Shown here piece by piece: positions 32,006-45,943 of a stretch of DNA of 64,000 nt. The position numbers and the translations under genes are program-made. The notes beneath the pieces were generated by a model that saw nothing but the letters and a program-made list of their open reading frames with translations, was not told where the DNA came from and made no database searches. Source of the stretch: an uncultured Hungatella sp. (lineage in GTDB: Bacteria; Bacillota; Clostridia; Lachnospirales; Lachnospiraceae); assembly GCA_947089145.1 (NCBI GenBank), contig CAMUJH010000021.1:1-64000 (forward strand). Reading direction: 5' to 3'. Position 1 is the stretch's first letter; every line of letters starts with the position of its first letter.

Positions 32006-32599
32006 ATGATGTACGGATATGCCCGGGTCAGCACAAAAGAGCAGAGAGAGGACAGGCAGCTTATGGCTTTTTCCGGAATGCAGCTTCCGGAGGAAAATAT
32101 TTATGTGGACAAGCAGTCAGGAAAAGATTTTGAACGTCCAATGTACAAGCGGATGGTGCGAAAAATGAAGGAGGATGATCTGCTGTACATAAAAAGCATT
32201 GACAGGCTGGGACGGAATTATGAGGAGATTCTGGAACAGTGGCGGCTGCTTACCAAGGAGAAAAAGGTGGATATTGTGGTCTTGGACATGCCTCTTTTAG
32301 ATACCCGGAGAGGAAAAGATCTGATGGGCACATTTTTAAGCGATGTGGTTCTGCAGGTTTTGTCTTTTGTGGCGGAAAATGAGCGTAAAAATATCAGAGA
32401 CAGGCAGAAGGAAGGGATCGAAGCTGCAAAGATGAGAGGCGTCCGGTTTGGGAGGCCGGAAAACCCGCTGCCGGATAATTTCGAACAGCTGAGCAGCAGA
32501 TGGCTTTCTGGGGAGATATCCGGAAAGAGGGCAGCGGAAATGTGCGGGATGCCTCTTACCACATTCCGCAGAAGAAGCGCCAAACAGGTGGAAAGCTGA
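32006..32599 (+). CDS. Small serine recombinase (resolvase/invertase family)
   Basis: The 197-aa protein has the catalytic serine in YARVSTKEQ (Ser9), the conserved arginines in SIDRLGRNYEEI, the E-helix (NERKNIRDRQKEGIEAAK) and a C-terminal helix-turn-helix (GKRAAEMCGMPLTTFRRRS). Such enzymes invert or resolve short DNA segments. It lies just upstream of the split ABC transporter genes, with its own terminator, and is separate from the large recombinase of the inserted element. No flanking inverted target sites were identified. Confidence 0.92.
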   Translation: MMYGYARVSTKEQREDRQLMAFSGMQLPEENIYVDKQSGKDFERPMYKRMVRKMKEDDLLYIKSIDRLGRNYEEILEQWRLLTKEKKVDIVVLDMPLLDTRRGKDLMGTFLSDVVLQVLSFVAENERKNIRDRQKEGIEAAKMRGVRFGRPENPLPDNFEQLSSRWLSGEISGKRAAEMCGMPLTTFRRRSAKQVES

Positions 32600-33662: not shown

Positions 33663-34355
33663 ATGGATGGCCTTTCCATGTCTCAGCAGGAATTTCTTGC
33701 AAAAGAGAAACTGCATAAAAAACAGGTAAGCATCTGCCGGGTAATGCTTCTGGTACTTTTGCTGGCATTGTGGGAGCTGTGCGCCCGGCTTCATATTATT
33801 GATTCGTTTATTTTCAGTTCCCCTGTAAGAATCTGGAATTGCTTTTTGGAAATGACAGGGGACGGAAGTATTTTTCTCCATATTGGCGTGACGCTTTTTG
33901 AAACGCTGGTCAGCTTTTTTCTTGTGGTTGCAGCAGGGGTACTGGCTGCCGTTGCTTTGTGGGGAAGCCGCAGCCTTTCGGAGATCCTGGAGCCTTATCT
34001 GGTTATGCTGAACAGCCTGCCAAAGTCTGCGCTGGCTCCCCTCCTGATTGTGTGGATGGGAAATAACATGCGCACCATCATCGTGGCGGCAGTGTCCGTG
34101 GCCGTATTCGGCTCCATACTGACCCTTCACACGGGATTTATGCAGACAGATCCGGATAAGATCCGGCTGATTCAGTCTCTGGGAGGGACAAAGAGAGATG
34201 TTCTGACAAAAGTGCTGATACCCTCCTCAGTCCCTCTCATCATCAGCAATATGAAGGTAAATGTGGGACTTTGCCTTGTAGGAGTGATTATCGGTGAATT
34301 TCTCTCTGCCAAGGCAGGACTGGGATATCTGATTATTTATGCTTCCCAGGTATTT
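33663..34355 (+). pseudogene. 5' part of ssuC-like ABC permease gene, interrupted by inserted element
   Basis: The first 231 codons encode membrane helices and the EAA loop (LIQSLGGTKRDVLTKVLIP) of an SsuC/TauC-type permease, up to GYLIIYASQVF. At that point the homology stops and the frame runs into element DNA. The missing 32 residues are found at 40667-40765 and begin KMDMLVMSIVIL. Joining TTT 34353-34355 to AAG 40667 restores a 263-aa protein of normal family length, with the expected junction SQVFKMD. The start follows AAAGGGGGG. Confidence 0.93.
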
Positions 34356-34378
34356 CCCTGTGAGTACATACTGACAGG
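34330..34378 (+). promoter_or_regulatory. attL-like junction of the serine-recombinase element
   Basis: Left of TTT (34353-34355) is permease sequence; right of it begins element DNA. The element half includes the arm 34358-34378 (CTGTGAGTACATACTGACAG plus G). This arm is the inverted partner of 40640-40660 at the other end, with 18 of 21 positions complementary. Confidence 0.85.
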
Positions 34379-34401
34379 AACACATAGGGCCTTTATAGTA
34401 A

Positions 34402-34506
34402 ACCCCCCATGGGCCCGGCAGGGAAGGAACCGCCGCCCATAAAAGTCCGGCGGGCGCGTTTGGCATCCCAGAATGCATGCCTCCTAATCGGAGGCGGGAT
34501 TTTAGA
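34402..34506. repeat. Dispersed repeat family A, copy 4, inside the element
   Basis: CATGGGCCCGGCAGGGAAGG, ATAAAAGTCCGGCGGGCGC, TTGGCATCCCAGAATGCATG and CCTAATCGGAGGCGGGATTT match family A with changes that keep the final hairpin paired. It overlaps the stop of the 34502-36025 gene, where it could act as its terminator. Confidence 0.75.
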
Positions 34507-36025
34507 GGAAACGGAAGCATACGACTGCCAAAACCCCTATGATGACGGCAACTGCGGTTCCAAACAGGATTTTTCCCATATTTCCGGACATGCCTATCCT
34601 ATGAGATCCTGCACCTGCCAGGAATCCCCAGGGGCTGTAAGCATTGATCTCCGGCAATTTAGAAGGATTCTGCCGGCTCCCTATGGCAAATAAAAAATTC
34701 TGCCAGTCCTTTTGAAGAATAGGAATTCCCATGGAAAATTCTTTTTCCGGGCTTAGATTTTTTAGCAGCGCCCGGAAAAACCCGGATTCTTTGGAATAGT
34801 GGGGAGGTTTTCCATGGCCAGATGCTTTCTGCTTTTCCCGAAACTGCTGGTAGGCATAGTCCCGCCCGTCCTGAATAGCCTTCTGGGGGTCTTTTGTCTG
34901 CTTATAGGCGGCAAGAGTGTGGTAATAGATTTGGGAAGCTTCCTTTTGGTTCACATACTGGCGGATGATCTTTTCAATGGCATTTTCAAGGGGGAAGGCG
35001 AAAAAACCGGAATCCTGGCTTTTTTCGGCGTATACCTGTCCTTTGATGGACATAACAGCTGCCAGCAGTCCGGTCACCTCCGGGTTTCTTGCTGTGATGG
35101 CTGGATTTTTAAAAAGATTGCCGCTGCCGTCTATATGTGCGGCAAACCGATTTGCCCTCTCCAGTTCCTTGCCTGAACAGGAGGAAAAACCTCCCTGCCG
35201 AAAGGTATTTTCCACGATGCCTTTCCTGGCAGAGATGATTACCTGATTTCTCTGCCGGATCTGCTCTTTCCAGGAACTTTGCTGGGTATGATAGGCCTGC
35301 TGGAATCGGATATTCTGTTTTCCGGAGGATTGATAGATCATGCCTTCTCTGGAAAAGGAGGAAGGAGCAGTAAATAATCCGGCGCTTTTGCTGCCGCCTG
35401 GGGTCCTGGGGGTAAAAAGCACATGTGCGGACTGAGGGGATATGGTCTGCCCGGCAGTCTGTCTGTAAAGGCTGGAGCGGATGCTGTCAAGTTCTGCGGT
35501 CTGCCCTGTTTTTTCCAGGAGGACTGTCAGCTGTTCCAGATTGAGATCCATCAATAGATTCAGCTTTTGAGCCAGCAGAGAATCCAAACGTGCCAGCTGC
35601 TGTGTCAGGTTTTCCCCTTCTGCATATTTCAGAGCAGATCCCAGCAAAGCTAAATACAATCTTGACAGTTCCTGAAGCTGTTTTGAGAGTGCAGCATAGG
35701 GATCAGGCTGCCATTCCAGAAAAGATTCCCATAGTTCTTCTTCCATCTCCAGCACCCATCTAAGCAGTTGGCCTGGAGAAACCGTTTGGCTCTCAAAGAA
35801 CCATCTGCGTGTTTCTGAGATCTCCGCAGTATCTTTTGGCTGCTCCGGATCTTCATCTTTGCGGGATTCCTGAGTTTTTTCACGCTGTCCCGCAATTGTG
35901 CGGGACATCTCCTGAATCAGTGCCTCGCCGGCCTTTTCCCCTATGGGCTGTCTGACAGGCAGAAGTTCTTTCTCTGCACTGGCGGCAGGTTCAATAGCAA
36001 CACCGGCTGCTTTTACATTTGACAT
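34502..36025 (-). CDS. Unknown 507-aa cytoplasmic protein with C-terminal membrane anchor, element cargo
   Basis: The product is largely helical and hydrophilic. Residues 100-190 contain a Leu-rich coiled-coil-like stretch (ALSKQLQELSRLYLALLGSA). The middle is Gln/Ser-rich, residues 340-400 are again helical (PLENAIEKIIRQYVNQKEAS), and the final 20 residues are a single membrane segment (ILFGTAVAVIIGVLAVVCF). No signal peptide is present, so it should be tail-anchored and face the cytoplasm. It is divergent from the chemoreceptor gene, suggesting shared control. I do not recognise the family. Confidence 0.7.
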   Translation of the reverse strand: MSNVKAAGVAIEPAASAEKELLPVRQPIGEKAGEALIQEMSRTIAGQREKTQESRKDEDPEQPKDTAEISETRRWFFESQTVSPGQLLRWVLEMEEELWESFLEWQPDPYAALSKQLQELSRLYLALLGSALKYAEGENLTQQLARLDSLLAQKLNLLMDLNLEQLTVLLEKTGQTAELDSIRSSLYRQTAGQTISPQSAHVLFTPRTPGGSKSAGLFTAPSSFSREGMIYQSSGKQNIRFQQAYHTQQSSWKEQIRQRNQVIISARKGIVENTFRQGGFSSCSGKELERANRFAAHIDGSGNLFKNPAITARNPEVTGLLAAVMSIKGQVYAEKSQDSGFFAFPLENAIEKIIRQYVNQKEASQIYYHTLAAYKQTKDPQKAIQDGRDYAYQQFREKQKASGHGKPPHYSKESGFFRALLKNLSPEKEFSMGIPILQKDWQNFLFAIGSRQNPSKLPEINAYSPWGFLAGAGSHRIGMSGNMGKILFGTAVAVIIGVLAVVCFRFL

Positions 36026-36229
36026 ATGTTTTTCCTTCCTTGTGCTGGAAACTGGGGTTCTTACTAAAATATATCGGCTTAATTGCCAAAAGTCTGATGA
36101 TATAACAGAAATAACTGGTTAGTTTTTGTGATCCATGGGACAAAAGCATAATTCGCTTATCTAAATGACATTGGCCCGTAAAAAGTAACATTACAACAGG
36201 AAGGATTGCAGCAGGAGAGTGAAAGATAC

Positions 36230-36258
36230 TTGCGTTTCAGCCATGCAGTTGCTATAAT
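36230..36258 (+). promoter_or_regulatory. Promoter of the chemoreceptor gene
   Basis: TTGCGT (36230-36235), 17 bases, TATAAT (36253-36258), 42 bases before the start codon. Confidence 0.65.
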
Positions 36259-36300
36259 AGGAAGAGATTAGTAAAAGATGACAGGAAAGGGAGTATGGGT

Positions 36301-38307
36301 ATGGAACACAGAGGAGAAAAGGGTTCCCGGGCCAACACCGGCGTGCGGGGGTGGGGAATCACTGGAAAACTGGCGTCTGCCATTGTGGTAAGCGTTGTGA
36401 TTGCTGTGGCGATCCTTCTTGCCGTAGTTTATCTTCAGATGTCCCGCGCGCTGCTGGACAAAAGCGAGGCTCTTCTGCAGACGACTACGGATCGGACGCT
36501 TCAGGAGACTAAGGCATGGATGAACAGCACGATGACTATGCTGGAGACTCAGAGAGATACCATAGAGTACGAGGACATGGATGTTCCCGCTATGATGGAT
36601 TATATTAAGCACACAGTGGGGCAGAATGATGCCTATCCCGCCGGACTGTACGTGGCACTGACAGACGGTTCCCTGTACCATGCTTCCTTTGTGCCGGGCC
36701 CGGATTACGATCCTGCTGCAAAAAGCTGGTATCAGGATGGCCTTAAATCTGACTCTTTCCTGTTAGGCGACGTGTATTTTGACGAGGACAGCCAGTCCTA
36801 CGTGGTAGGCGCTTCCGGCGTGCTGAAGGCAAAGGACGGTACGGTGCGCGGCGTGGCGGCGGCGGACGTGTATCTGGACTCTATCTCAAAGATTGTCAGC
36901 GAAGCCAGGCTGGAGGACAACGGCGGCATTTTCCTGGTGGATACCAGAACCAATATCATCATCGGCCATCGGGACGGAAATGTGATAGGACAGAAACTGG
37001 ATGAGCTGAAGGACGGCATGTATGTCTATGCCAGCGAGCAAATCCGTGGAGGGAAAACGGGCCTGTCTCTCAATGACAACACCTATATCCAGGTGGAGCA
37101 GGTTCCAGGCAGCGACTGGACGGCAGTGGCCTATGTGTCCAGGTCGGAGGTGCTGTATGAACTGCAGCAGCTGACGGTCAGCATGCTTCTGGTAGCGGCT
37201 TTTGCGGTGCTGGTCCTGATTCTTCTGGTGGTAATTCAGGTTAGGCGGGTTATCGGCCGTCCGGTCAAGGAACTGAGCCGGGCAGCTACGCAGATTGCCC
37301 AGGGCGATCTGGAACAGTCTATCCGCTATCAGTCCAGAGACGAGCTTGGAGTGCTGGCCAGAGACTTTAACCAGGTTACTCTCCGGCTGCGGGAATATGT
37401 GATATATATTAATGAGATCTCCGAAAAACTGCGGGAGATCGCAGCAGGCAATCTGGTGTTTACACTGGAAAACCAATATACCGGTGAATTCGAGAAGATC
37501 AAGATCGCTTTAGAGGAGATATCCCGTGCGCTGAACGGAACTATGGGGCAGCTGCGCACTGTGTCCAGAGATGTGGCGGCAGGCGCCCAGCAGGTTTCCG
37601 ACGGCGCCACCACCCTGTCTCAGGGTTCTACGGAGCAGGCATCCGAAGTGGAAACCCTGGCCGGACACATGAATGTTGTATCGGAAAGCGTGCACAACAT
37701 TTCCAAGGGGGCCCAGGAAGCCAGCCGCATTTCCCAGGATGTGAGAAACGGGCTTTTGTCAAGCAAGGATAAGATGCAGAATATGACAGAGGTGATCCAG
37801 CGGATCAGCGACAAATCCGCAGAGATCCATAAGATTGTCAAGACCATTGAGGACATTGCCTTCCAGACCAATATTCTGGCCCTCAACGCCGCCGTGGAAG
37901 CTGCCAGGGCAGGGGCTGCCGGAAAAGGATTTGCGGTAGTTGCCGATGAAGTCCGCGCTTTGGCCGGCAAATCTTCTTCAGCTGCCAAGGAGACTACGAT
38001 TCTGCTGCGCCAGACAGTGGATTCCATGGAAGAGGGGGTCCATGCGGCCCAGGATACGGCGGATTCCTTACTGAAGGTAGTGGCTCAGGCGGATGAGATG
38101 AATAAGTTTATTGACGGAATCGCAGACTACACCAAGCAGCAGGACGCCAATGCGGAAGAGATCACCCAGGGGATCGAGCAGATCTCCACGGTTGTGCAGA
38201 CCAATGTGGCTACGGCAGAAGCCAGCGCCGCTGCCAGCGAGGAACTGGCAGGCCAGGCAGCCATGCTCCGGGAAATGGTTGCAAAATTTAAGATTCGGGA
38301 ATCATAA
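36301..38307 (+). CDS. Methyl-accepting chemotaxis protein, element cargo
   Basis: The 668-aa membrane receptor has an N-terminal membrane helix, an extracellular Cache-type sensor domain (residues about 45-280), a second helix (MLLVAAFAVLVLILLVVIQV) and a HAMP domain. The cytoplasmic signalling domain carries the hairpin tip ALNAAVEAARAGAAGKGFAVVADEVRALA. It senses a small ligand and would modulate CheA. Cache domains often bind amino or organic acids. ATG 36301 has better ribosome-site spacing (AGGAAAGGGA) than ATG 36295. Finding a receptor as cargo of a small recombinase element is unusual. Confidence 0.93.
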   Translation: MEHRGEKGSRANTGVRGWGITGKLASAIVVSVVIAVAILLAVVYLQMSRALLDKSEALLQTTTDRTLQETKAWMNSTMTMLETQRDTIEYEDMDVPAMMDYIKHTVGQNDAYPAGLYVALTDGSLYHASFVPGPDYDPAAKSWYQDGLKSDSFLLGDVYFDEDSQSYVVGASGVLKAKDGTVRGVAAADVYLDSISKIVSEARLEDNGGIFLVDTRTNIIIGHRDGNVIGQKLDELKDGMYVYASEQIRGGKTGLSLNDNTYIQVEQVPGSDWTAVAYVSRSEVLYELQQLTVSMLLVAAFAVLVLILLVVIQVRRVIGRPVKELSRAATQIAQGDLEQSIRYQSRDELGVLARDFNQVTLRLREYVIYINEISEKLREIAAGNLVFTLENQYTGEFEKIKIALEEISRALNGTMGQLRTVSRDVAAGAQQVSDGATTLSQGSTEQASEVETLAGHMNVVSESVHNISKGAQEASRISQDVRNGLLSSKDKMQNMTEVIQRISDKSAEIHKIVKTIEDIAFQTNILALNAAVEAARAGAAGKGFAVVADEVRALAGKSSSAAKETTILLRQTVDSMEEGVHAAQDTADSLLKVVAQADEMNKFIDGIADYTKQQDANAEEITQGIEQISTVVQTNVATAEASAAASEELAGQAAMLREMVAKFKIRES

Positions 38308-38321
38308 GGTGAAACTGATAA

Positions 38322-38360
38322 AAAGAACGTTTCCAGGCGAAAGACCAGGAAACGTTCTTT
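38322..38360 (+). terminator. Terminator of the chemoreceptor gene
   Basis: AAAGAACGTTTCC and GGAAACGTTCTTT pair perfectly around a 13-base loop, 15 bases after the stop. Confidence 0.88.
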
Positions 38361-38460
38361 CATTTCATAGGAAATTGCGTCCTATGAAATAAAAACGCTT
38401 TGCGAGGATGCGCACTCCGCGCAAAGGAAAATGGCTGCTGTGGCAGCCGCGCTCCGGCGC

Positions 38461-38490
38461 AAGTGTGCGTCAAGACGCACACTTTTTTAA
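38461..38490 (+). terminator. Second terminator-like hairpin before the recombinase genes
   Basis: AAGTGTGCGT and ACGCACACTT flank a CAAG loop and are followed by TTTTAA. The GC-rich stretch 38390-38455 just before it holds small palindromes and no gene. Confidence 0.75.
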
Positions 38491-38592
38491 TTTATGCCAA
38501 TAGAATCTTTGCAGAATATATCTGATTGATCACATTTAAAGCAATTATGGACAGGGCCTTAGCCATATTATAGTAAAAAACGGTTGGAAAAG

Positions 38593-38760
38593 ATGACAGA
38601 TACGATTATCACAGGGAAGAAAGAAGTGAAATCCGGTACGGAATTTTATGAAGAGGAAAAGGCGGTTCTCAGCCAGGCGGCCAGACTATTAGTCAGGGAG
38701 AGGCTTATAAATGCGGAAGAACAAATGCGCTTTCTGTCTCTCCTTCAGGAGGAGGGGTAA
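38593..38760 (+). CDS. 55-aa protein upstream of the large serine recombinase
   Basis: A short acidic frame (MTDTIITGKKEVKSGTEFY onward, ending INAEEQMRFLSLLQEEG) stops immediately before the recombinase TTG start, so translation is coupled. Its helical C-terminus (ARLLVRERLINAEEQ) loosely recalls SHOCT-like short domains. A recombination-directionality (excision) factor role is a reasonable guess from position only. Confidence 0.6.
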   Translation: MTDTIITGKKEVKSGTEFYEEEKAVLSQAARLLVRERLINAEEQMRFLSLLQEEG

Positions 38761-40575
38761 TTGGCCCTGCTGCGGGCAGTCATCTACTGCCGCTGCAGTA
38801 CAGAGGAGGAAAGCCAGGCAGATGCTCTGCGCAATCAGATTTGGGAGAGCGAGGCATGCGTCAGGGAGCAGGGGTGGGCTTTGACAGACAGATATGTGGA
38901 ACTGAAAAGCGGGACTACCACGAAAGGAAGAGATGAGTATAACCGGCTATTTGAAGACTTACTGTCTGACAGGTTTGACATTATTGTCATAAAGAGCCAG
39001 GACCGTCTCATGCGCAATGTGAAAGACTGGTATCTGTTTCTGGACAGAATGTTAAGCTGCAGAAAACGGCTGTTTATGTACATAGAACGGAAATTTTACA
39101 CGGCGGACGACGCCCTGGTTACCGGGATCAAAGCCATACTGGCTGAGGAATACAGCAGGGAGTTAAGCAAAAAGATCAACAATGCGCATCGCTGCCGCCA
39201 GGTTAACGGCAAAAAGGCGGTGCTGACATCAAGGGTGTTTGGTTTTTGCAGAATGTCTGACGGTACCTTGCAGGTTGAGGAAGCGGAAGCTGAGATTATC
39301 AGAGAAATATACAGCTATTGTGCGGCTGGATATGGCAGCCGAAGGATTGCCAACATGTTTTTGGAACAGGGATACTTAAAGAAAACCGGCAATCCTTTGA
39401 CGGCTGTCTGTGTAGGAAGGATCATACGAAACCCTCTGTACAAAGGAACCATGGTTATGAACCGGCTGCACTATGATTTTGATACGAAGCAGACGGTGAA
39501 AAATCCCAGGGAACAGTGGATTTACAGAGAAGGGGCAGTTCCAGGGATTGTGGATAAGGATTTGTGGGATCGGGCAAACCAGGCTATGACGGACAGGGCA
39601 AACCGTTTCTGCCCAAATGGAATGAAAACCATAAAAAGCGGCAAAGGTTCTTATGATCTGTCTGGCAAGCTCATATGCAGCCAGTGCAGAAAACCGTATT
39701 ACCGGACCAGGAGAACAGGGGCCGGGAAACGGGAGGTGATTGAGTGGAAATGTTCTAATTATCTGGAACAGGGAAAGAAGGCAGAGAACAATCTATTTGG
39801 AGGCTGTGACAGCGTTCATCTGGATGAAGGCATTTTGTTTGAGATACTTAAGCAGGTAAGCGCAAAGATCTATCCGTTTAAGGAACAGTATAAAGATGGC
39901 ATGATCAGCTGCGGGATTAGGCTTTTTACAGAGGCTTTGAGCCATATGCCTGCCTGCCGCAGGCAGGAGAAGATTGAGAGTGAGAAAAAGCGGCTGGAGG
40001 GACAGAAGGATTTTCTTCTGAGCAAATTTTTGGAAGGGGTGATCTCTGACAGGGATTATCAGAAAAAAAATCAGGAACTGGAGGGAAAGCTTGCCAACCT
40101 AAAGGCCCAGAAGGACGGGCTGGCCAGAGAGGAGCAGGGGAGCGGGAACCTTAAACAGCGCATAGCACTCATAGAGGAACGATTAAAAAACGGAGGTATG
40201 GAGAAGGCTTTTGTGATTCAAATGCTGCAGGACGTAAGCGAAATCAGGGTGCATGGGTGGCAGCTGGAGATCTGTTTTAACCCGTTGAAAAACCACGTCC
40301 CGGTGTGGATCGATTATCCCTTTGGACCGGAGACGGTGAAGGGAAGGTTTTTAGACCGGAGAAAGATTGTGGAAATATTAAAGAAAAACCCATGCGCAAC
40401 TGCCGGAAAACTGGGGGAAGAAATGGGGCGCTCTGTTTACATGGTAAGGAACCGCATGGAGGAGCTGACAAAAGGGGGATATATTCGGTTTCAGGGGAAA
40501 GGCGGGCACGGAAGGTGGGAGGTATTAAAGGAACTTCCAGAGAAGGAGGCAAGCATCAAGGCCGGCGGATTGTAG
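38761..40575 (+). CDS. Large serine recombinase (integrase/excisionase) of the element
   Basis: The 604-aa protein has a resolvase domain with catalytic Ser13 (YCRCSTEEE) and arginines in SQDRLMRN. A recombinase DNA-binding domain follows (GSRRIANMFLEQGYLKKTG, RIIRNPLYKG). A zinc ribbon (CSQC and later cysteines) and a coiled coil (residues about 410-480) come next. The last 75 residues add a winged-helix-like segment (RRKIVEILKKNPCATAGKLG...YMVRNRMEELTKGGYIRF), an unusual extension. The TTG start follows CAGGAGGAGG. It would catalyse integration and excision between attL and attR. Confidence 0.93.
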   Translation: MALLRAVIYCRCSTEEESQADALRNQIWESEACVREQGWALTDRYVELKSGTTTKGRDEYNRLFEDLLSDRFDIIVIKSQDRLMRNVKDWYLFLDRMLSCRKRLFMYIERKFYTADDALVTGIKAILAEEYSRELSKKINNAHRCRQVNGKKAVLTSRVFGFCRMSDGTLQVEEAEAEIIREIYSYCAAGYGSRRIANMFLEQGYLKKTGNPLTAVCVGRIIRNPLYKGTMVMNRLHYDFDTKQTVKNPREQWIYREGAVPGIVDKDLWDRANQAMTDRANRFCPNGMKTIKSGKGSYDLSGKLICSQCRKPYYRTRRTGAGKREVIEWKCSNYLEQGKKAENNLFGGCDSVHLDEGILFEILKQVSAKIYPFKEQYKDGMISCGIRLFTEALSHMPACRRQEKIESEKKRLEGQKDFLLSKFLEGVISDRDYQKKNQELEGKLANLKAQKDGLAREEQGSGNLKQRIALIEERLKNGGMEKAFVIQMLQDVSEIRVHGWQLEICFNPLKNHVPVWIDYPFGPETVKGRFLDRRKIVEILKKNPCATAGKLGEEMGRSVYMVRNRMEELTKGGYIRFQGKGGHGRWEVLKELPEKEASIKAGGL

Positions 40576-40639
40576 CGTTTTGACGGCTTTGCCTAATATG
40601 ATCTGCCCTGCAGGAGACGGTAAGCGGAGGATGCCTAAT

Positions 40640-40690
40640 CCTGTCACTCTGTCCTCACAGCTCTTTAAGATGGATATGCTGGTAATGTCT
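40640..40690 (+). promoter_or_regulatory. attR-like junction of the element
   Basis: Element arm 40640-40660 (CCTGTCACTCTGTCCTCACA plus G) is followed by CTC and the TTT core 40664-40666, after which permease coding sequence resumes at AAG 40667. Confidence 0.85.
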
Positions 40691-40765
40691 ATTGTGATCC
40701 TCTGCATTTTGTCCACAGTTTTGTATCAGGTTATTGCAGCGCTGGAGAAGCGGTTTTTGCAGTAA
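40667..40765 (+). pseudogene. 3' part of the interrupted ssuC-like permease gene
   Basis: The frame encodes KMDMLVMSIVILCILSTVL and the typical C-terminal end VIAALEKRFLQ of SsuC/TauC permeases, then TAA. It has no start of its own. It completes the 5' part at 33663-34355 in frame once the element is removed. Confidence 0.92.
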
Positions 40766-40808
40766 GAAATAAAGCCCCTGAATTTTTTAAGGAGGAAATG
40801 TGCTGACA

Positions 40809-40840
40809 AAAAACGGCAATGAACAGGCATTGCCGTTTTT
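40809..40840 (+). terminator. Terminator of the ABC transporter unit
   Basis: AAAACGGCAATG pairs with CATTGCCGTTTT around AACAGG, followed by T residues; it also faces the end of the convergent TetR gene. Confidence 0.85.
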
Positions 40841-40886
40841 GAGGCGCTTTTCTGGATGAACCGTGAAGCTTCAGGACATCATTTTG

Positions 40887-41546
40887 TTAACCGAAGATAG
40901 AATGTTTAGGCGGCTGGTGGCTGTCAGCAAATTTAAAAGCCTCCTGGATATTCTCCTGTATAGTCAGCTCGTCCAGCTTGCATAAAAGCCCTATGTGATA
41001 AATATGGTAATAACAATACTCATCCACAGTCATGACGCCGGGGTTTTCCTGGAAGCAGGTGTAAAGCTGGACTCTTCCTCCCATATCAATACGGACCTTG
41101 ATGCGCAGATCCTTCATGTCATAGGATTTGTGGAAGTCCTGGGATACCTGCTCAAAAATATGGGACACAATATCAACCTTATGGTTCATCCATTGTTCCT
41201 GCTGGTCTTTGTGGTAGAACAGCTCCATGGTGCGGGGGCTGCTCATGATGCGGCGGTAAGCATAAATATAGACAACGCAGTGACGCCAGTATTTATTTCT
41301 GTATTCTTCTGGATAGGAGTCAATGAATTTCTTGAGCATTTCAAAAAAATCGTCAATCAGTTCTTCCATAAGCATAAATTTATTTTTGAAATGGTAAGTA
41401 ATGGTGCTTTTGACAATGCCCAATTCATCCGCTATTTTCTGAAACGTGGTGCCGCTATAGCCATACTGAAGAAACATGTTTCCTGCGACTTTAAGGATTT
41501 CCGACCTTAAATTTGCTGGTTTATTTTTATCTGTAAATGGATTCAT
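40887..41546 (-). CDS. TetR/AcrR-family transcriptional regulator
   Basis: The 219-aa protein has an N-terminal helix-turn-helix (ILKVAGNMFLQYGYSGTTFQ...LGIVKSTITYHFKNK) and a helical ligand-binding domain. It is divergent from the MFS and molybdenum hydroxylase genes, whose promoter carries a perfect inverted repeat. It most likely represses that operon and is released by its substrate. The ligand is not evident. Confidence 0.9.
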   Translation of the reverse strand: MNPFTDKNKPANLRSEILKVAGNMFLQYGYSGTTFQKIADELGIVKSTITYHFKNKFMLMEELIDDFFEMLKKFIDSYPEEYRNKYWRHCVVYIYAYRRIMSSPRTMELFYHKDQQEQWMNHKVDIVSHIFEQVSQDFHKSYDMKDLRIKVRIDMGGRVQLYTCFQENPGVMTVDEYCYYHIYHIGLLCKLDELTIQENIQEAFKFADSHQPPKHSIFG

Positions 41547-41749
41547 TTAGGAAACCTCCAACATAAAAGGGCAGTGGATGAAAAGAATATCCGTCTTATT
41601 ATATAAGAGATTAGGGGAATATACAAGCGGCAGAAGTCAATTAGTACAAACATACGTGCGTATTGTATGTATTAAACGGATAAAATCCGAAATTGTCCTG
41701 TAAAACCGACAAAAAAGATAAAAAATCCTTTTTTATTGATAAATTTATA

Positions 41750-41778
41750 TTGACTATGTCTAGCCAATATAGTAAAAT
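41750..41778 (+). promoter_or_regulatory. Promoter of the MFS/molybdenum hydroxylase operon
   Basis: TTGACT (41750-41755), 17 bases, TAAAAT (41773-41778). Transcription would start inside the adjacent inverted repeat. The rest of the 331-base divergent region is AT-rich. Confidence 0.65.
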
Positions 41779-41781
41779 TGC

Positions 41782-41807
41782 ACTGTACAAACAATAAATT
41801 GTACAGT
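41782..41807. promoter_or_regulatory. Perfect inverted-repeat operator at the transcription start
   Basis: ACTGTACAA, eight bases, TTGTACAGT: perfect 9-bp arms placed just after the -10 box, where a bound repressor would block transcription. The divergent TetR protein is the obvious candidate, though TetR half-site spacing is usually tighter. Confidence 0.65.
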
Positions 41808-41877
41808 ATAAAATAAACTGCAGCTTATTTTTTTATTGTAACATGTTAAAAAAAAGACAAAGGAAGGAGCAATTATA

Positions 41878-43110
41878 ATGGAAGCATCACAGAAAAGGGG
41901 GAATCCTTGGCTGTCCTTGACAGCGGTTACCCTGGCCTTTTCCTTCACGTTTTTAAGCAGATACATCTGGAGCCCGCTGATGGCAGACGTATCCAGTGAG
42001 TTTGGGATTAACGCTACTCAGGCGGGACTTTATATGTCTGCTTTTTTTGCCGGCTATCTGGTGACCCAGATACCTGGAGGGATCATGGCGGACAAGTACC
42101 AGCCCAAATATATTCTGATGATCTGCACAGCTTTGGGAGGCATCATGACGGCTATGATGTCCATGATCCAAAGCTATGAGATGGGATTGGCGATCCGAGT
42201 CATAACCGGCGTCAGCAGCGGATGCGTTATGGCCCAGTGTTCCAAAGTGGTGGCCACTACCTTTGAGCCTAAGAAACGGGCGTCAGCTATGGGCGTGGTT
42301 CTTGCTTCCCCGCCTTTTGGCATCACGCTGGCACAGTCTCTGGGAGCCCCCTTAAACCAGGCCATTGGCTGGAGAAACACGTTTTTGGCAGTGGCAGTGG
42401 TGGCTGTTGTCATTGTTGCCATGATCGCCATGTGGGTTCCCGCTACGGCTAAGAAGGCGGCTCCCACGGGGGAGGCGGCCAAGGCGGCGGCTCAGACTGC
42501 GGCGGCAGCTCCGGCGAAACAGGCAGGGCTTTTGGAGGGGCTTATCGGATTCTTTACCAACAAGCAGCAGCTTCTTCTGGGAGCCAGCGGGTTCATGTTC
42601 ATGTTTATCTCTGTGGGATTTGCCACGTGGACCAACCGCTATGCTCAGAGCCTGGGGTTCACTCCTGTCCAGGGAGGCATGATTATTACATGCTACAGCA
42701 TCGCAGGTATTGCGGCCTCCTGCATTTCTGGCTCTCTGGCGGACAAGCTTCACTTGAGCCACAGGAACTTCCTTATATTAAGCCTATCCCTGATGGGCGC
42801 CATGACTCTGGTATTTTCGTTCCAGAGCAGTTATGCGGGGCTTCTGGTGGTGGGCATTATTTACGGCGCCGCTTCCTATCTGCCGTCTACCCACTACACC
42901 ACGTCAGCCATGATCCTGGCAGGAGAGCGGTTTACAGCCACAGCGGCGTCCTCCCAGAACCTTTTATTCCAGCTGGCCAGCTTTATTATGCCGGTTGTGG
43001 TTGGGCGGGCCATAGACGCTACGGGCAATTACAGCCTGGTTTGGTATATTTTCTGCGGCTGCGCTGTTATTTCCGTAATATTCTGTTTCTTTGTTAAAAA
43101 TGATAAATAA
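41878..43110 (+). CDS. MFS transporter
   Basis: The 410-aa protein has about twelve membrane helices. The MFS signature follows helix 2 (GGIMADKYQPKYIL), and an Ala-rich central loop separates the halves. The overall pattern is that of anion/organic-acid (OxlT/ACS-like) transporters. It is the first gene of the operon with the molybdenum hydroxylase (21-base gap), so it probably imports that enzyme's substrate. GGAAGGAGCAATTATA precedes the ATG. Confidence 0.92.
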   Translation: MEASQKRGNPWLSLTAVTLAFSFTFLSRYIWSPLMADVSSEFGINATQAGLYMSAFFAGYLVTQIPGGIMADKYQPKYILMICTALGGIMTAMMSMIQSYEMGLAIRVITGVSSGCVMAQCSKVVATTFEPKKRASAMGVVLASPPFGITLAQSLGAPLNQAIGWRNTFLAVAVVAVVIVAMIAMWVPATAKKAAPTGEAAKAAAQTAAAAPAKQAGLLEGLIGFFTNKQQLLLGASGFMFMFISVGFATWTNRYAQSLGFTPVQGGMIITCYSIAGIAASCISGSLADKLHLSHRNFLILSLSLMGAMTLVFSFQSSYAGLLVVGIIYGAASYLPSTHYTTSAMILAGERFTATAASSQNLLFQLASFIMPVVVGRAIDATGNYSLVWYIFCGCAVISVIFCFFVKNDK

Positions 43111-43130
43111 CATGGAGAAAAGGAGTACAT

Positions 43131-43649
43131 ATGAAAGAAATAGTTCGAAAAGTAATTACCATCCATGTAAATGGAAAGACGTATGATATTCCCGTAGGTA
43201 CAGGGCGGTATGAGATGCCGGAAAGCGAGACACTGTCCCATACCCTGCGGGACCGTCTGGGGCTGACAGGTCTTAAGATCGGGTGCGACCAGGGCGCCTG
43301 CGGCTGCTGCACGGTCATTATGGACGGGAAGGCTGTTACCTCCTGCATGACTCTTACCATGGATTGCGACGGCAAAACGATTACCACCATCGAGGGGCTG
43401 GCTGATCGGGCTACCGGTGAGCTGGACGGGCTTCAGCAGGCATTTTTGGACAACTGCGGATATCAGTGCGGATTCTGTACTCCAGGCATTATCATGACTG
43501 CCAAGGCATTTCTGGAAGAGCATGAAAACCCTACTGAGGAGGAGGTGCGGGAAGCTTTGGCCGGCAATTACTGCCGCTGCGGCACCCACTACACAGCGGT
43601 TGAGTCGGTTATGGCTTATGTGCAGAAGAGGAAGGAGGAGCGTCAATGA
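43131..43649 (+). CDS. Molybdenum hydroxylase small subunit with two [2Fe-2S] clusters
   Basis: The 172-aa protein has a plant-type ferredoxin cluster motif (CDQGACGCCTV with a later C) and the second helical cluster motif (CGYQCGFCTPG and NYCRCGTH). This is the XdhC/CoxS/HcrC family pattern. It passes electrons between the molybdenum site in the large subunit and FAD. Its N-terminus is about 15 residues longer than usual. The stop overlaps the start of the large-subunit gene (ATGA). Confidence 0.95.
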   Translation: MKEIVRKVITIHVNGKTYDIPVGTGRYEMPESETLSHTLRDRLGLTGLKIGCDQGACGCCTVIMDGKAVTSCMTLTMDCDGKTITTIEGLADRATGELDGLQQAFLDNCGYQCGFCTPGIIMTAKAFLEEHENPTEEEVREALAGNYCRCGTHYTAVESVMAYVQKRKEERQ

Positions 43650-45943
43650 GCGAATTGAAATATGTAGGTAAAGAGACTGTCCGCCTGCTGGGACGTGACA
43701 TCGTTACAGGCAGGGCCAGGTACACAGGGGATTTCCGGCTGCCGGGGATGCAGTACGGAAAGATTTTGAGAAGTCCTCATCCATACGCAAAGATCCTGTC
43801 CATTGACGTGTCCCGGGCAAAGGCTTTGGAAGGCGTTACTGCGGTGGTAACCTGGAAGGATGTTGACAGGAACATCTACATTACCAACGGCTTCACCCCG
43901 CCAAAGCATCACCACATTATGGACGAGTATGTGCGGTTCATCGGCGATGCCGTGGCCCTTATTGTGGCGGAGACAGAGGATTTGGCCATGGAGGCCATGG
44001 AGCTTATTAATGTGGAGTATGAGGTGTTAAAGCCTGTGTTTACCATTGACGAGGCCATAGCACCGGATGCGCCCCAGCTGTATCCGGAGTTCCCGGGAAA
44101 CATTGCGCCCCACAAGAACAACCTGGATTTTGAGGTAGGGGACCTTGAAAAGGGATTTGAGGAGTCAGATATTATCGTGGAGATCGATGCGGCCATGGAG
44201 AACGGACAGAACCCTCTGCCGGTAGAGCCGCCTACCATTATATGTTCCTATGAAAATGATACCTACAACTTTATCGCCTCCGCTGCAGCTCCGGCTTACT
44301 GCCACCAGAATGTGGCTTCTTCCCTTGATGTGCCTTACGAGCAGGTTCGCCTGGAGGCCCCGGCCGTAGGCGGCAGCTTTGGCTCCAAGCTCTACAGCGG
44401 CAATGTGCAGTGTCTTGTATTTGCGGCCATTATGTCCAAGGCGGCTCATTGTCCCGTGCTGTTTACCTACACCAAGGAGGAGCATTTCGGCGTTCACCAG
44501 AACCGCATGTCCACTAAGGCTCATATTAAGTTCGGCATGAAGAAAGACGGCATGGCCAGCGCCATCCAGATGACCCAGTATGCGGACGCAGGCGTGTGCG
44601 CTTCCACCCAGGAGTTTATGCTGGCGGTTGGAACCAACACCCTGCCGATCCTTTGCAAGACAGATAACAAGAGCTACCATGCCAAGGTGGTTGTGACCAA
44701 CCATATTCCTTCCGGCTCTTTCCGCGGATACGGGTACATGGAGTCAACAGCCCTGGTGAGCCAGGCGGTTTTCGAGGCCTGCGAGAAGATGGGCATTGAC
44801 CCGGTGGTTTATCTTGAGAAAAATGCCATGAAGAAGGGCGACCGCTACCACAATTCCATGGCCGGCGATCACCCATGGCAGGAGAACAAGACAGCAGACT
44901 GGTCCAACCTGGTAACAGAGACTGCCAAGGCCTTTAAGTGGAGTGAGCGGTTTAAAGGCTGGGGCGTTCCCACATGGGTATCGCCGGACGGCAAGAAGGC
45001 CAGAGGCGTAGGCGTGGGAGCCGCAGGCCATTCGGATACCGGCGGCAAGCCGTCTAATGCCAATGTGACAGTTACAGGGCTTGGAGCCGTGTATCTGTCC
45101 ACCTGCATGTCCGAGTTCGGCGCAGGGACCAGGGACGTGATGCTGAAAGTGGTAGCCGAGGAGCTTGACATGCCTTTAGAGTCTATCCGGGTTTCCGATG
45201 CGGATACAGGCATGACGCCTCCTGATTTCGGCTCCACCGGTTCCAGATCCACCTACTGCGGCGGCATTGTGGCAAAGAGGGCCTGCGAAGACGTGAAGAA
45301 GAAACTGTTTGCCCTGGCCCATCAGAAGTTCGGCGTTCCTGAAGATGATCTGGGATTTGGAAATGGGTTTGTGTACCGCCTTTCCAATCCGGAAGAAAAG
45401 TATGGCTTGTTCCCCCATCTTATGGGAAAGGTGGACAGCGTTACAGGATGCGGCCATTTTGACGGCGTTCACAACAGCACCATTTTCCATCTGCAGTTCG
45501 TTGAGGTGGAAGTGGACAAGGAGATGGGAACCTTCCGCATTATTGACCATTTCGGCGGGTCAGACGCAGGCGTTATTGTGAACCCCCTGCCTTTAAAGAA
45601 CCAGTGCCAGTCGTTCTTCGCGGGTATTGACATTGCCTGCATGGAGGAGACAGTGTGGGACCCCAATGATTTCAGAGTGCTGAATCCAAGCAATATTGAT
45701 TACAAAACCAGAACCTTTAACGATGTGGTTCCCCATGACCACATTATCCTGGAGTCCATGAAGGATGTGGAGAATGATTATCCCTTTGGCGCAGTGGGCG
45801 TGGGAGAGCCGCTGCTGGCCCCCGGCGGTCCGGCGATCCGCATGGCCATCTATAATGCATGCCAGATCAAGCTGAATTCGTATCCATTTACGCCGGCCAG
45901 AGTTTTAAAGGCACTGAAAGAGAAGGAGGAACAGGAAGCATGA
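43646..45943 (+). CDS. Molybdenum hydroxylase large subunit (molybdopterin-binding)
   Basis: The 765-aa protein is of the xanthine dehydrogenase/CO dehydrogenase large-subunit family. It has the aldehyde-oxidase N-domain (GRARYTGDFRLPGM), the cofactor loops AVGGSFGSK and FRGYGYMES, and the catalytic glutamate in AVGVGEPLLAPGG. The cofactor loops differ from the common GGGFGGK and FRGPG or FRGFG, so the substrate is uncertain: a purine, N-heterocycle or aromatic acid are all possible. It overlaps both neighbours by four bases, forming one complex with them. Confidence 0.93.
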   Translation: MSELKYVGKETVRLLGRDIVTGRARYTGDFRLPGMQYGKILRSPHPYAKILSIDVSRAKALEGVTAVVTWKDVDRNIYITNGFTPPKHHHIMDEYVRFIGDAVALIVAETEDLAMEAMELINVEYEVLKPVFTIDEAIAPDAPQLYPEFPGNIAPHKNNLDFEVGDLEKGFEESDIIVEIDAAMENGQNPLPVEPPTIICSYENDTYNFIASAAAPAYCHQNVASSLDVPYEQVRLEAPAVGGSFGSKLYSGNVQCLVFAAIMSKAAHCPVLFTYTKEEHFGVHQNRMSTKAHIKFGMKKDGMASAIQMTQYADAGVCASTQEFMLAVGTNTLPILCKTDNKSYHAKVVVTNHIPSGSFRGYGYMESTALVSQAVFEACEKMGIDPVVYLEKNAMKKGDRYHNSMAGDHPWQENKTADWSNLVTETAKAFKWSERFKGWGVPTWVSPDGKKARGVGVGAAGHSDTGGKPSNANVTVTGLGAVYLSTCMSEFGAGTRDVMLKVVAEELDMPLESIRVSDADTGMTPPDFGSTGSRSTYCGGIVAKRACEDVKKKLFALAHQKFGVPEDDLGFGNGFVYRLSNPEEKYGLFPHLMGKVDSVTGCGHFDGVHNSTIFHLQFVEVEVDKEMGTFRIIDHFGGSDAGVIVNPLPLKNQCQSFFAGIDIACMEETVWDPNDFRVLNPSNIDYKTRTFNDVVPHDHIILESMKDVENDYPFGAVGVGEPLLAPGGPAIRMAIYNACQIKLNSYPFTPARVLKALKEKEEQEA

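Follow-up and report, generated by a model that had tools for sequence, protein, structure and literature searches.

The window, by which we mean the whole 64,000-nucleotide stretch analysed here (from a contig of an uncultured Hungatella sp.), carries a site-specific integrative element of the large serine recombinase (LSR) type, recognised by the three LSR domains of its recombinase, the attL and attR sites that bound it, the empty site in relatives and a common target. With a probability of roughly 0.87, we regard it as a small member of a cargo-swapping, site-specific family that uses codon 231 of an ABC permease gene as its hotspot. The permease locus more closely resembles a hotspot for the insertion of mobile elements than a dedicated gene switch, because LSRs down to 39–44% identity share the codon, the cargo changes and the histories of recombinase and permease are discordant; for the same reasons we no longer follow the preliminary description of this DNA in its suggestion of a dedicated developmental or stress switch.

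That description had an ssuC-like permease gene split by a 6.3-kb serine-recombinase insertion, codons 1–231 running to 34355 and the remaining 32 codons from 40667, and this was borne out, the insertion being an LSR element of 6311 bp (34356–40666; Table 1). Joining 33663–34355 to 40667–40765 gives, as had been claimed, a 263-residue permease with no internal stop and the junction SQVFKMD. KMD or RMD directly follows SQVF in all 16 intact permeases of the window's genus, the Pfam BPD_transp_1 match of the open frame 33663–34442 stops at residue 231, and both halves align to the same orthologue, not to different homologues. It had further been proposed that excision restores a working importer. 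The reading frame would indeed be restored exactly, but a working importer is not established, because no gene for a substrate-binding protein was recognised beside the permease among the window's ORFs (translations read by eye) and all five of the genome's NMT1-type matches lie on contigs other than that of the permease. We also considered expression of the detached 3' part (permC) from an ORF of its own, and set this aside because the surrounding open frames vary from 36 to 118 codons, without a common start. A separate gene for a 197-aa small serine resolvase-like protein lies at 32006–32599, immediately upstream of the gene for the transporter's ATPase.

Table 1. Features of the split permease gene and of the element within it, in window coordinates.
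Feature	Position	Strand	Basis or remark
Permease N-terminal part, codons 1–231	33663–34355	+	Open frame continues to 34442 through element DNA
attL core dinucleotide TT	34353–34354	+	Window junction and aligned junctions of relatives
attL element-side arm (right half of attP)	34356–34378	+	Window junction and aligned junctions of relatives
507-aa protein, predicted C-terminal helix	34502–36025	-	In 7 of 22 elements, some of them retrieved partly
Methyl-accepting chemotaxis protein (dCache, HAMP, MCPsignal), cargo	36295–38307	+	Pfam
58-aa ORF abutting the recombinase gene	38584–38760	+	Position kept in relatives; candidate directionality or accessory factor
Large serine recombinase with C-terminal winged-helix domain	38761–40575	+	Pfam
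attR element-side arm (left half of attP)	40640–40663	+	Window junction and aligned junctions of relatives
attR core dinucleotide TT	40664–40665	+	Window junction and aligned junctions of relatives
Permease C-terminal part, last 32 codons and stop	40667–40765	+	Joined translation; split/intact comparison

When the two ends of the element (40630–40666 and 34356–34390) are joined, the reconstructed attP contains the dyad that had been described, with 18 of 21 positions complementary, or 18 of 25 if the four innermost unpaired positions are counted; a score of 18 was reached by none of 2000 shuffles, whose maximum was 16. The centre of the dyad falls in the TTT of the junction, as had been said, and more exactly between its first two T. 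In the junctions of the relatives, aligned and read by eye, TT stands at the core in 19 of 19 attL and 22 of 22 attR sites, and the base that follows differs between attL and attR in six of the 19 two-sided loci (those of G100, G106, G020, G008, G103 and G119). With TT invariant on both sides and the third base variable, we therefore place the crossover at TT, and the alignments point to this dinucleotide as the probable core. Related arms lie on both sides of the aligned junctions regardless of the direction of the recombinase gene. The best attP dyad is centred on one common point in 17 of the 19 loci, centres having been sought within 7 bases of the junction only, and it was matched by no more than 5 of 500 shuffles in 14 of them. 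Weaker dyads were found in G107 (17/500 shuffles) and G116 (44/500), and those of the remaining three loci (G099, G100 and G115) were no better than shuffled sequences.

The recombinase gene product (38761–40575) has Resolvase, Recombinase and Zn_ribbon_recom domains in Pfam, the models of which are all matched by 22 of 22 aligned LSRs, and the C-terminal winged-helix model HTH_24 is matched at E ≤ 0.01 by 20 of the 22. Among the PHROGs, the LSR of the window matches the phrog_95 integrase. The LSR gene runs codirectionally with the permease in nine elements, which form one clade with moderate support (83/89), and opposite to it in twelve, the element at locus L040 being rearranged. An ORF of 44–82 codons lies directly upstream of the LSR gene in 21 of 22 elements, L051 having none; in 16 of 21 relatives it resembles that of the window by BLAST, and those of L046, L049, L050 and L052 were assigned by their position and a weak common motif. 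Comparison of the small ORF with solved structures gave no convincing relative (best E 0.029, Bicaudal D), and it was the LSR, not the small ORF, that matched the SPbeta integrase entries, one of which is a YotN fusion. The small ORF may be a directionality factor.

A recombinase search of genome contigs yielded 23 loci, of which 22 were examined (L048, on a 3-kb contig, was left out), and the queries run against the whole genomes of these 22 were the joined permease and, separately, its final 32 residues; the genomes are mostly drafts, many of them MAGs, and the split ones were chosen mainly through the LSR search. The same permease cut is present in 21 of the 22 genomes reached in this way, the window being an additional case; the exception is L053 (Blautia), in which the LSR lies outside the permease. 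The permease match ends at residues 233–255 in 21 of the 22, with the 3' part found elsewhere (weakest E 0.0018, in G112), and the junctions of the split loci themselves show that the cut is at codon 231. In five of the 22 split genomes (G006, G010, G019, G112 and G114) the two halves are on different contigs and are therefore not seen to be colinear. No second intact copy of the permease orthologue was found in the 21 split genomes at E ≤ 1e-20, the next-best permease matches being only 23–29% identical.

Close relatives do not all share the split. Intact permease orthologues are present in 16 of the 26 genomes of the window's genus and split ones in eight; G004 gave no permease match at the cut-off used, and the permease of G017 is fragmentary, its second fragment (residues 171–259) running uninterrupted across the insertion site. 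The LSR was found at E ≤ 1e-100 in exactly the eight split genomes and in none of the 16 intact ones (Fisher p 1.4e-6, the related species not being independent). A more distant recombinase (E 2.3e-86) occurs in G011, on a contig other than that of its intact permease. The recombinase of G076, 43% identical, groups beside that of G116 within the clade, and the permease of G076 is intact and on another contig, so that the recombinases are largely, but not strictly, faithful to the permease. At L040 (12271–14368), the 3' part of the permease is inverted relative to the 5' part, by rearrangement or misassembly; simple excision could therefore not restore the gene there.

Plasmid and phage collections yielded only LSRs of less than 60% identity. 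One record, MT836003.1 (L105, 7785–10895), a faecal contig named 'Bacteriophage sp.', is the same bacterial permease locus, with an open permease 3' part and a truncated LSR whose match covers residues 4–279 only, and the plasmid record NC_012782 has an LSR relative with phage-type neighbours. IMG/VR gave four LSR relatives (L055–L058). No permease lies near the LSR in L055–L057, which have neighbouring genes in common with each other and with L053; L058 is cut short at its end, with no permease in the 9 kb examined.

Split and intact permeases interleave in the permease tree, with 14 changes of state on 52 rows, at least four of them forced by starred branches; only 9 of the 49 inner branches of this tree carry a star, so that its resolution is weak, and shuffled states gave a mean of 16.9 changes, with 48–49 of 500 shuffles as low as 14. 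Sister rows may be of opposite state: G008, for example, is split and its sister G023 is intact. In synonymous divergence the permease exceeds the LSR in some pairs (dS 1.03 versus 0.56 for G008–G019 and 0.93 versus 0.47 for G020–G008), and is the lesser in others (LSR 0.51 versus permease 0.18 for G099–G100, and 0.36 versus 0.18 for the window and G010). The histories of permease and LSR are thus discordant, and we therefore take the element to move horizontally into one hotspot.

Stable vertical inheritance at the locus was accordingly not what we found across the family, where the distribution is patchy and the histories disagree; the pair formed by the window and G010 does fit shared descent. 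Between these two, the element is about 90% identical and the upstream flank about 93%, and because both are shared, the copy in the window has probably been resident since the two diverged; it was likely inherited by both from a common ancestor, or else moved together with its flank. Beyond the permease 3' end, window positions 40766–45500 (TetR, MFS and molybdenum hydroxylase genes) are unrelated to the DNA at the same position in G010, so that a further rearrangement borders the locus. Stretches at about 30.3–30.6, 33.5–33.7, 34.3–34.5 and 38.3–38.5 kb of the window are absent from G010, and CCCATGGGCCCGGC occurs twice in the window, at the gaps of about 33.5–33.7 and 34.3–34.5 kb.

The detached 3' end has kept its reading frame: permC is an open frame at every one of the 22 split loci and is as well conserved there as it is in intact genes. 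In pairs limited to a pN below 0.15 in the 5' part, which overlap and are not independent, its mean pN is 0.114 for 26 split–split pairs, 0.109 for 75 split–intact pairs and 0.100 for 65 intact–intact pairs. Between the window and G010, permC has five synonymous changes in 21 sites and three non-synonymous changes in 66 (Fisher p 0.018, from eight substitutions in all); the two do not differ in its first bases, which belong to the att arm and are separately constrained. Conservation of the 3' ends is accounted for equally well by frequent re-insertion into genes that function and by regular excision.

The smallest element (L036) measures 3.7 kb and the two largest about 28 kb (G117) and about 32 kb (G103), and the minimal ones (L033, L036, L038 and L042, 3.7–4 kb) consist of the LSR, the small ORF and the 507-aa protein only. 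In the window, the element carries a chemoreceptor gene, the 58-aa ORF and the LSR gene, with the 507-aa ORF on the opposite (minus) strand, and no transfer genes were seen in it. The 507-aa protein has no match in Pfam, NCBIfam, PHROGs or PADLOC, and its AlphaFold2 model, built from six sequences, has a mean pLDDT of 41.5. Relatives of this protein stand alone, outside the permease, at L093:6647–8134 (G022) and L094:6495–8009 (G038), with no recombinase match near them in the stretch examined; the neighbours of the former resemble cobalamin-synthesis genes by eye. The chemoreceptor is present in three of the 22 elements, some of which were retrieved partly. The host genome has three matches to CheW-type genes, and the chemoreceptor could therefore function. 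Its relatives at L095:1061–3121 and L096:1058–3142 (G016 and G015), 76–82% identical in the sensor half, lie away from any such recombinase match, and the permease is intact in both genomes.

Cargo of the other elements includes AAA-ATPase/PDDEXK_9 proteins, helicases, HerA-like ATPases, HipA and GGDEF proteins, among others. When 30 proteins from 13 elements were scanned with PADLOC (matches counted at E ≤ 1e-8, with no enrichment control), a PADLOC-listed family was matched in eight of the 13: Hachiman HamA and HamB together in G116, the only visibly complete pair; Septu PtuA, PDC-S03 and PDC-S04 in G119; a TmtA/MkoA-like protein in G008; mad8/DndH-like and PDC-M03A proteins in G114; a DndH/mad8-like protein in G112; PDC-S03 in G113; PDC-S09 in G019; and an IetA-like protein in G103. 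A helicase match at L037:6506–8314 was weaker than the cut-off and was not counted. There was no match among the proteins scanned from the window, G101, G107, G020 and G117. The codirectional clade, of which the window is a member, was represented by two proteins (that of 507 aa and L035:6391–7269), and neither gave a match.

We propose that a single LSR recombines attP with an attB inside permease codon 231, at the TT core, and that the cassettes, found here in Lachnospiraceae and relatives, keep the module of small ORF, LSR and attP, exchange their cargo and pass from species to species, each time entering the permease at this site. Integration cuts the last 32 residues off the permease; the LSR, probably assisted by a directionality factor for which the small ORF is a candidate, would rebuild the gene exactly on excision. 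The anatomy, the common target, the patchy distribution, the discordant histories and the conserved reading frames are observed, whereas we infer that integration and excision would be continuing, that the small ORF would have a part in them, that transport would be affected and that the cassettes would have some route between cells. A search of the assembly to which the window belongs, allowing up to three mismatches, detected neither an excised attB nor a circular attP junction; minor forms are normally hidden in an assembly.

It seems unlikely to us that the element has been domesticated as a reversible switch, its conditional excision turning the permease on as skin does for sigK. Such a switch would fit the open and conserved permC of all 22 split loci, the skew of its substitutions towards synonymous ones in the window and G010, which apparently share the split by descent, and the exact frame of the joined halves. 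Yet recent insertion accounts equally well for the conserved 3' ends, and the pair test comprises few substitutions in a stretch whose first bases are constrained as an att arm. The elements differ widely in size, in cargo and in the orientation of the LSR gene, permease and LSR histories conflict, the site is empty in 16 of the 26 genus genomes, the gene at L040 is beyond repair by simple excision, and the window's assembly holds no excised form. The last point would also suit a degenerate, locked insertion, with the permease broken and the element immobile, as would the chance-level attP dyads of some relatives and the truncated LSR of MT836003; we nevertheless consider this improbable, for in the window the frame and domains of the LSR and the attP dyad are intact, and permC appears constrained between the window and G010.

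A prophage remnant with a permease-targeting integrase is suggested by the phrog_95 match, by distant LSR relatives (39–42% identity) in IMG/VR viral contigs and by YqaJ- or RecT-type recombination genes in the two largest elements. Its origin as such is doubtful in our view, as the element in the window has no structural or lysis gene, Pfam revealed no structural gene among 40 cargo proteins of relatives (the large elements being partly covered), and elements of 3.7–4 kb hold nothing besides the LSR, small ORF and 507-aa protein. The cargo-swapping hotspot family remains our preferred reading. A more speculative idea, to which we give little credence, is that through this widespread cassette family populations might trade the importer for interchangeable immune or sensory cargo, excision being frequent enough to keep selection on permC, so that the element would act as a mobile on/off switch at the level of the population, coupled to exchangeable defence modules.

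In lifestyle, the nearest known system is SCC, which is mobilised by recombinases of the LSR family (Ccr) at one chromosomal site and carries variable cargo, but which inserts at the end of rlmH, with that gene remaining functional. The likeness lies in the LSR family, the single chromosomal site and the variable cargo; the element in the window, by contrast, splits its permease internally and has one LSR in place of the ccrA/ccrB pair. Membership of SCC was rejected, since the best NCBIfam scores of the LSR are far below the cut-offs (CcrB 93.4 bits against 900, CcrC 52.7 against 900 and CcrA 50.2 against 700) and the insertion is in the permease, not in rlmH. As described by Durrant et al. 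(2022, PMC10083194), distantly related LSRs share one target gene, a prolyl isomerase, which they disrupt at one site in the coding sequence; our family likewise has one disrupted target gene and one internal site, and differs from the elements described there in its exchangeable, partly defence-like cargo. The words 'permease' and 'ABC transporter' are absent from the main text of that report. The skin element in sigK of Clostridioides difficile undergoes experimentally shown, developmentally regulated excision (PMC5025042). The element in the window resembles skin in combining an LSR with a separate, here putative, directionality factor and in that excision would control a gene, whereas its family is mobile and swaps cargo, and any regulation would be hypothetical. 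Within an open-access library searched by word match, neither this cassette family nor any insertion of an LSR element into an ABC permease gene was found described.

The many natural attL and attR sites that can be aligned at one target should be useful in the study of site recognition by LSRs, and the recombinases themselves are potentially useful as integration tools for gut Clostridia. The hotspot also marks cargo, among it the 507-aa protein and small operons, that merits tests for a role in defence against phages. A further question, itself testable, is why the 3' end of the permease remains conserved although it is detached.
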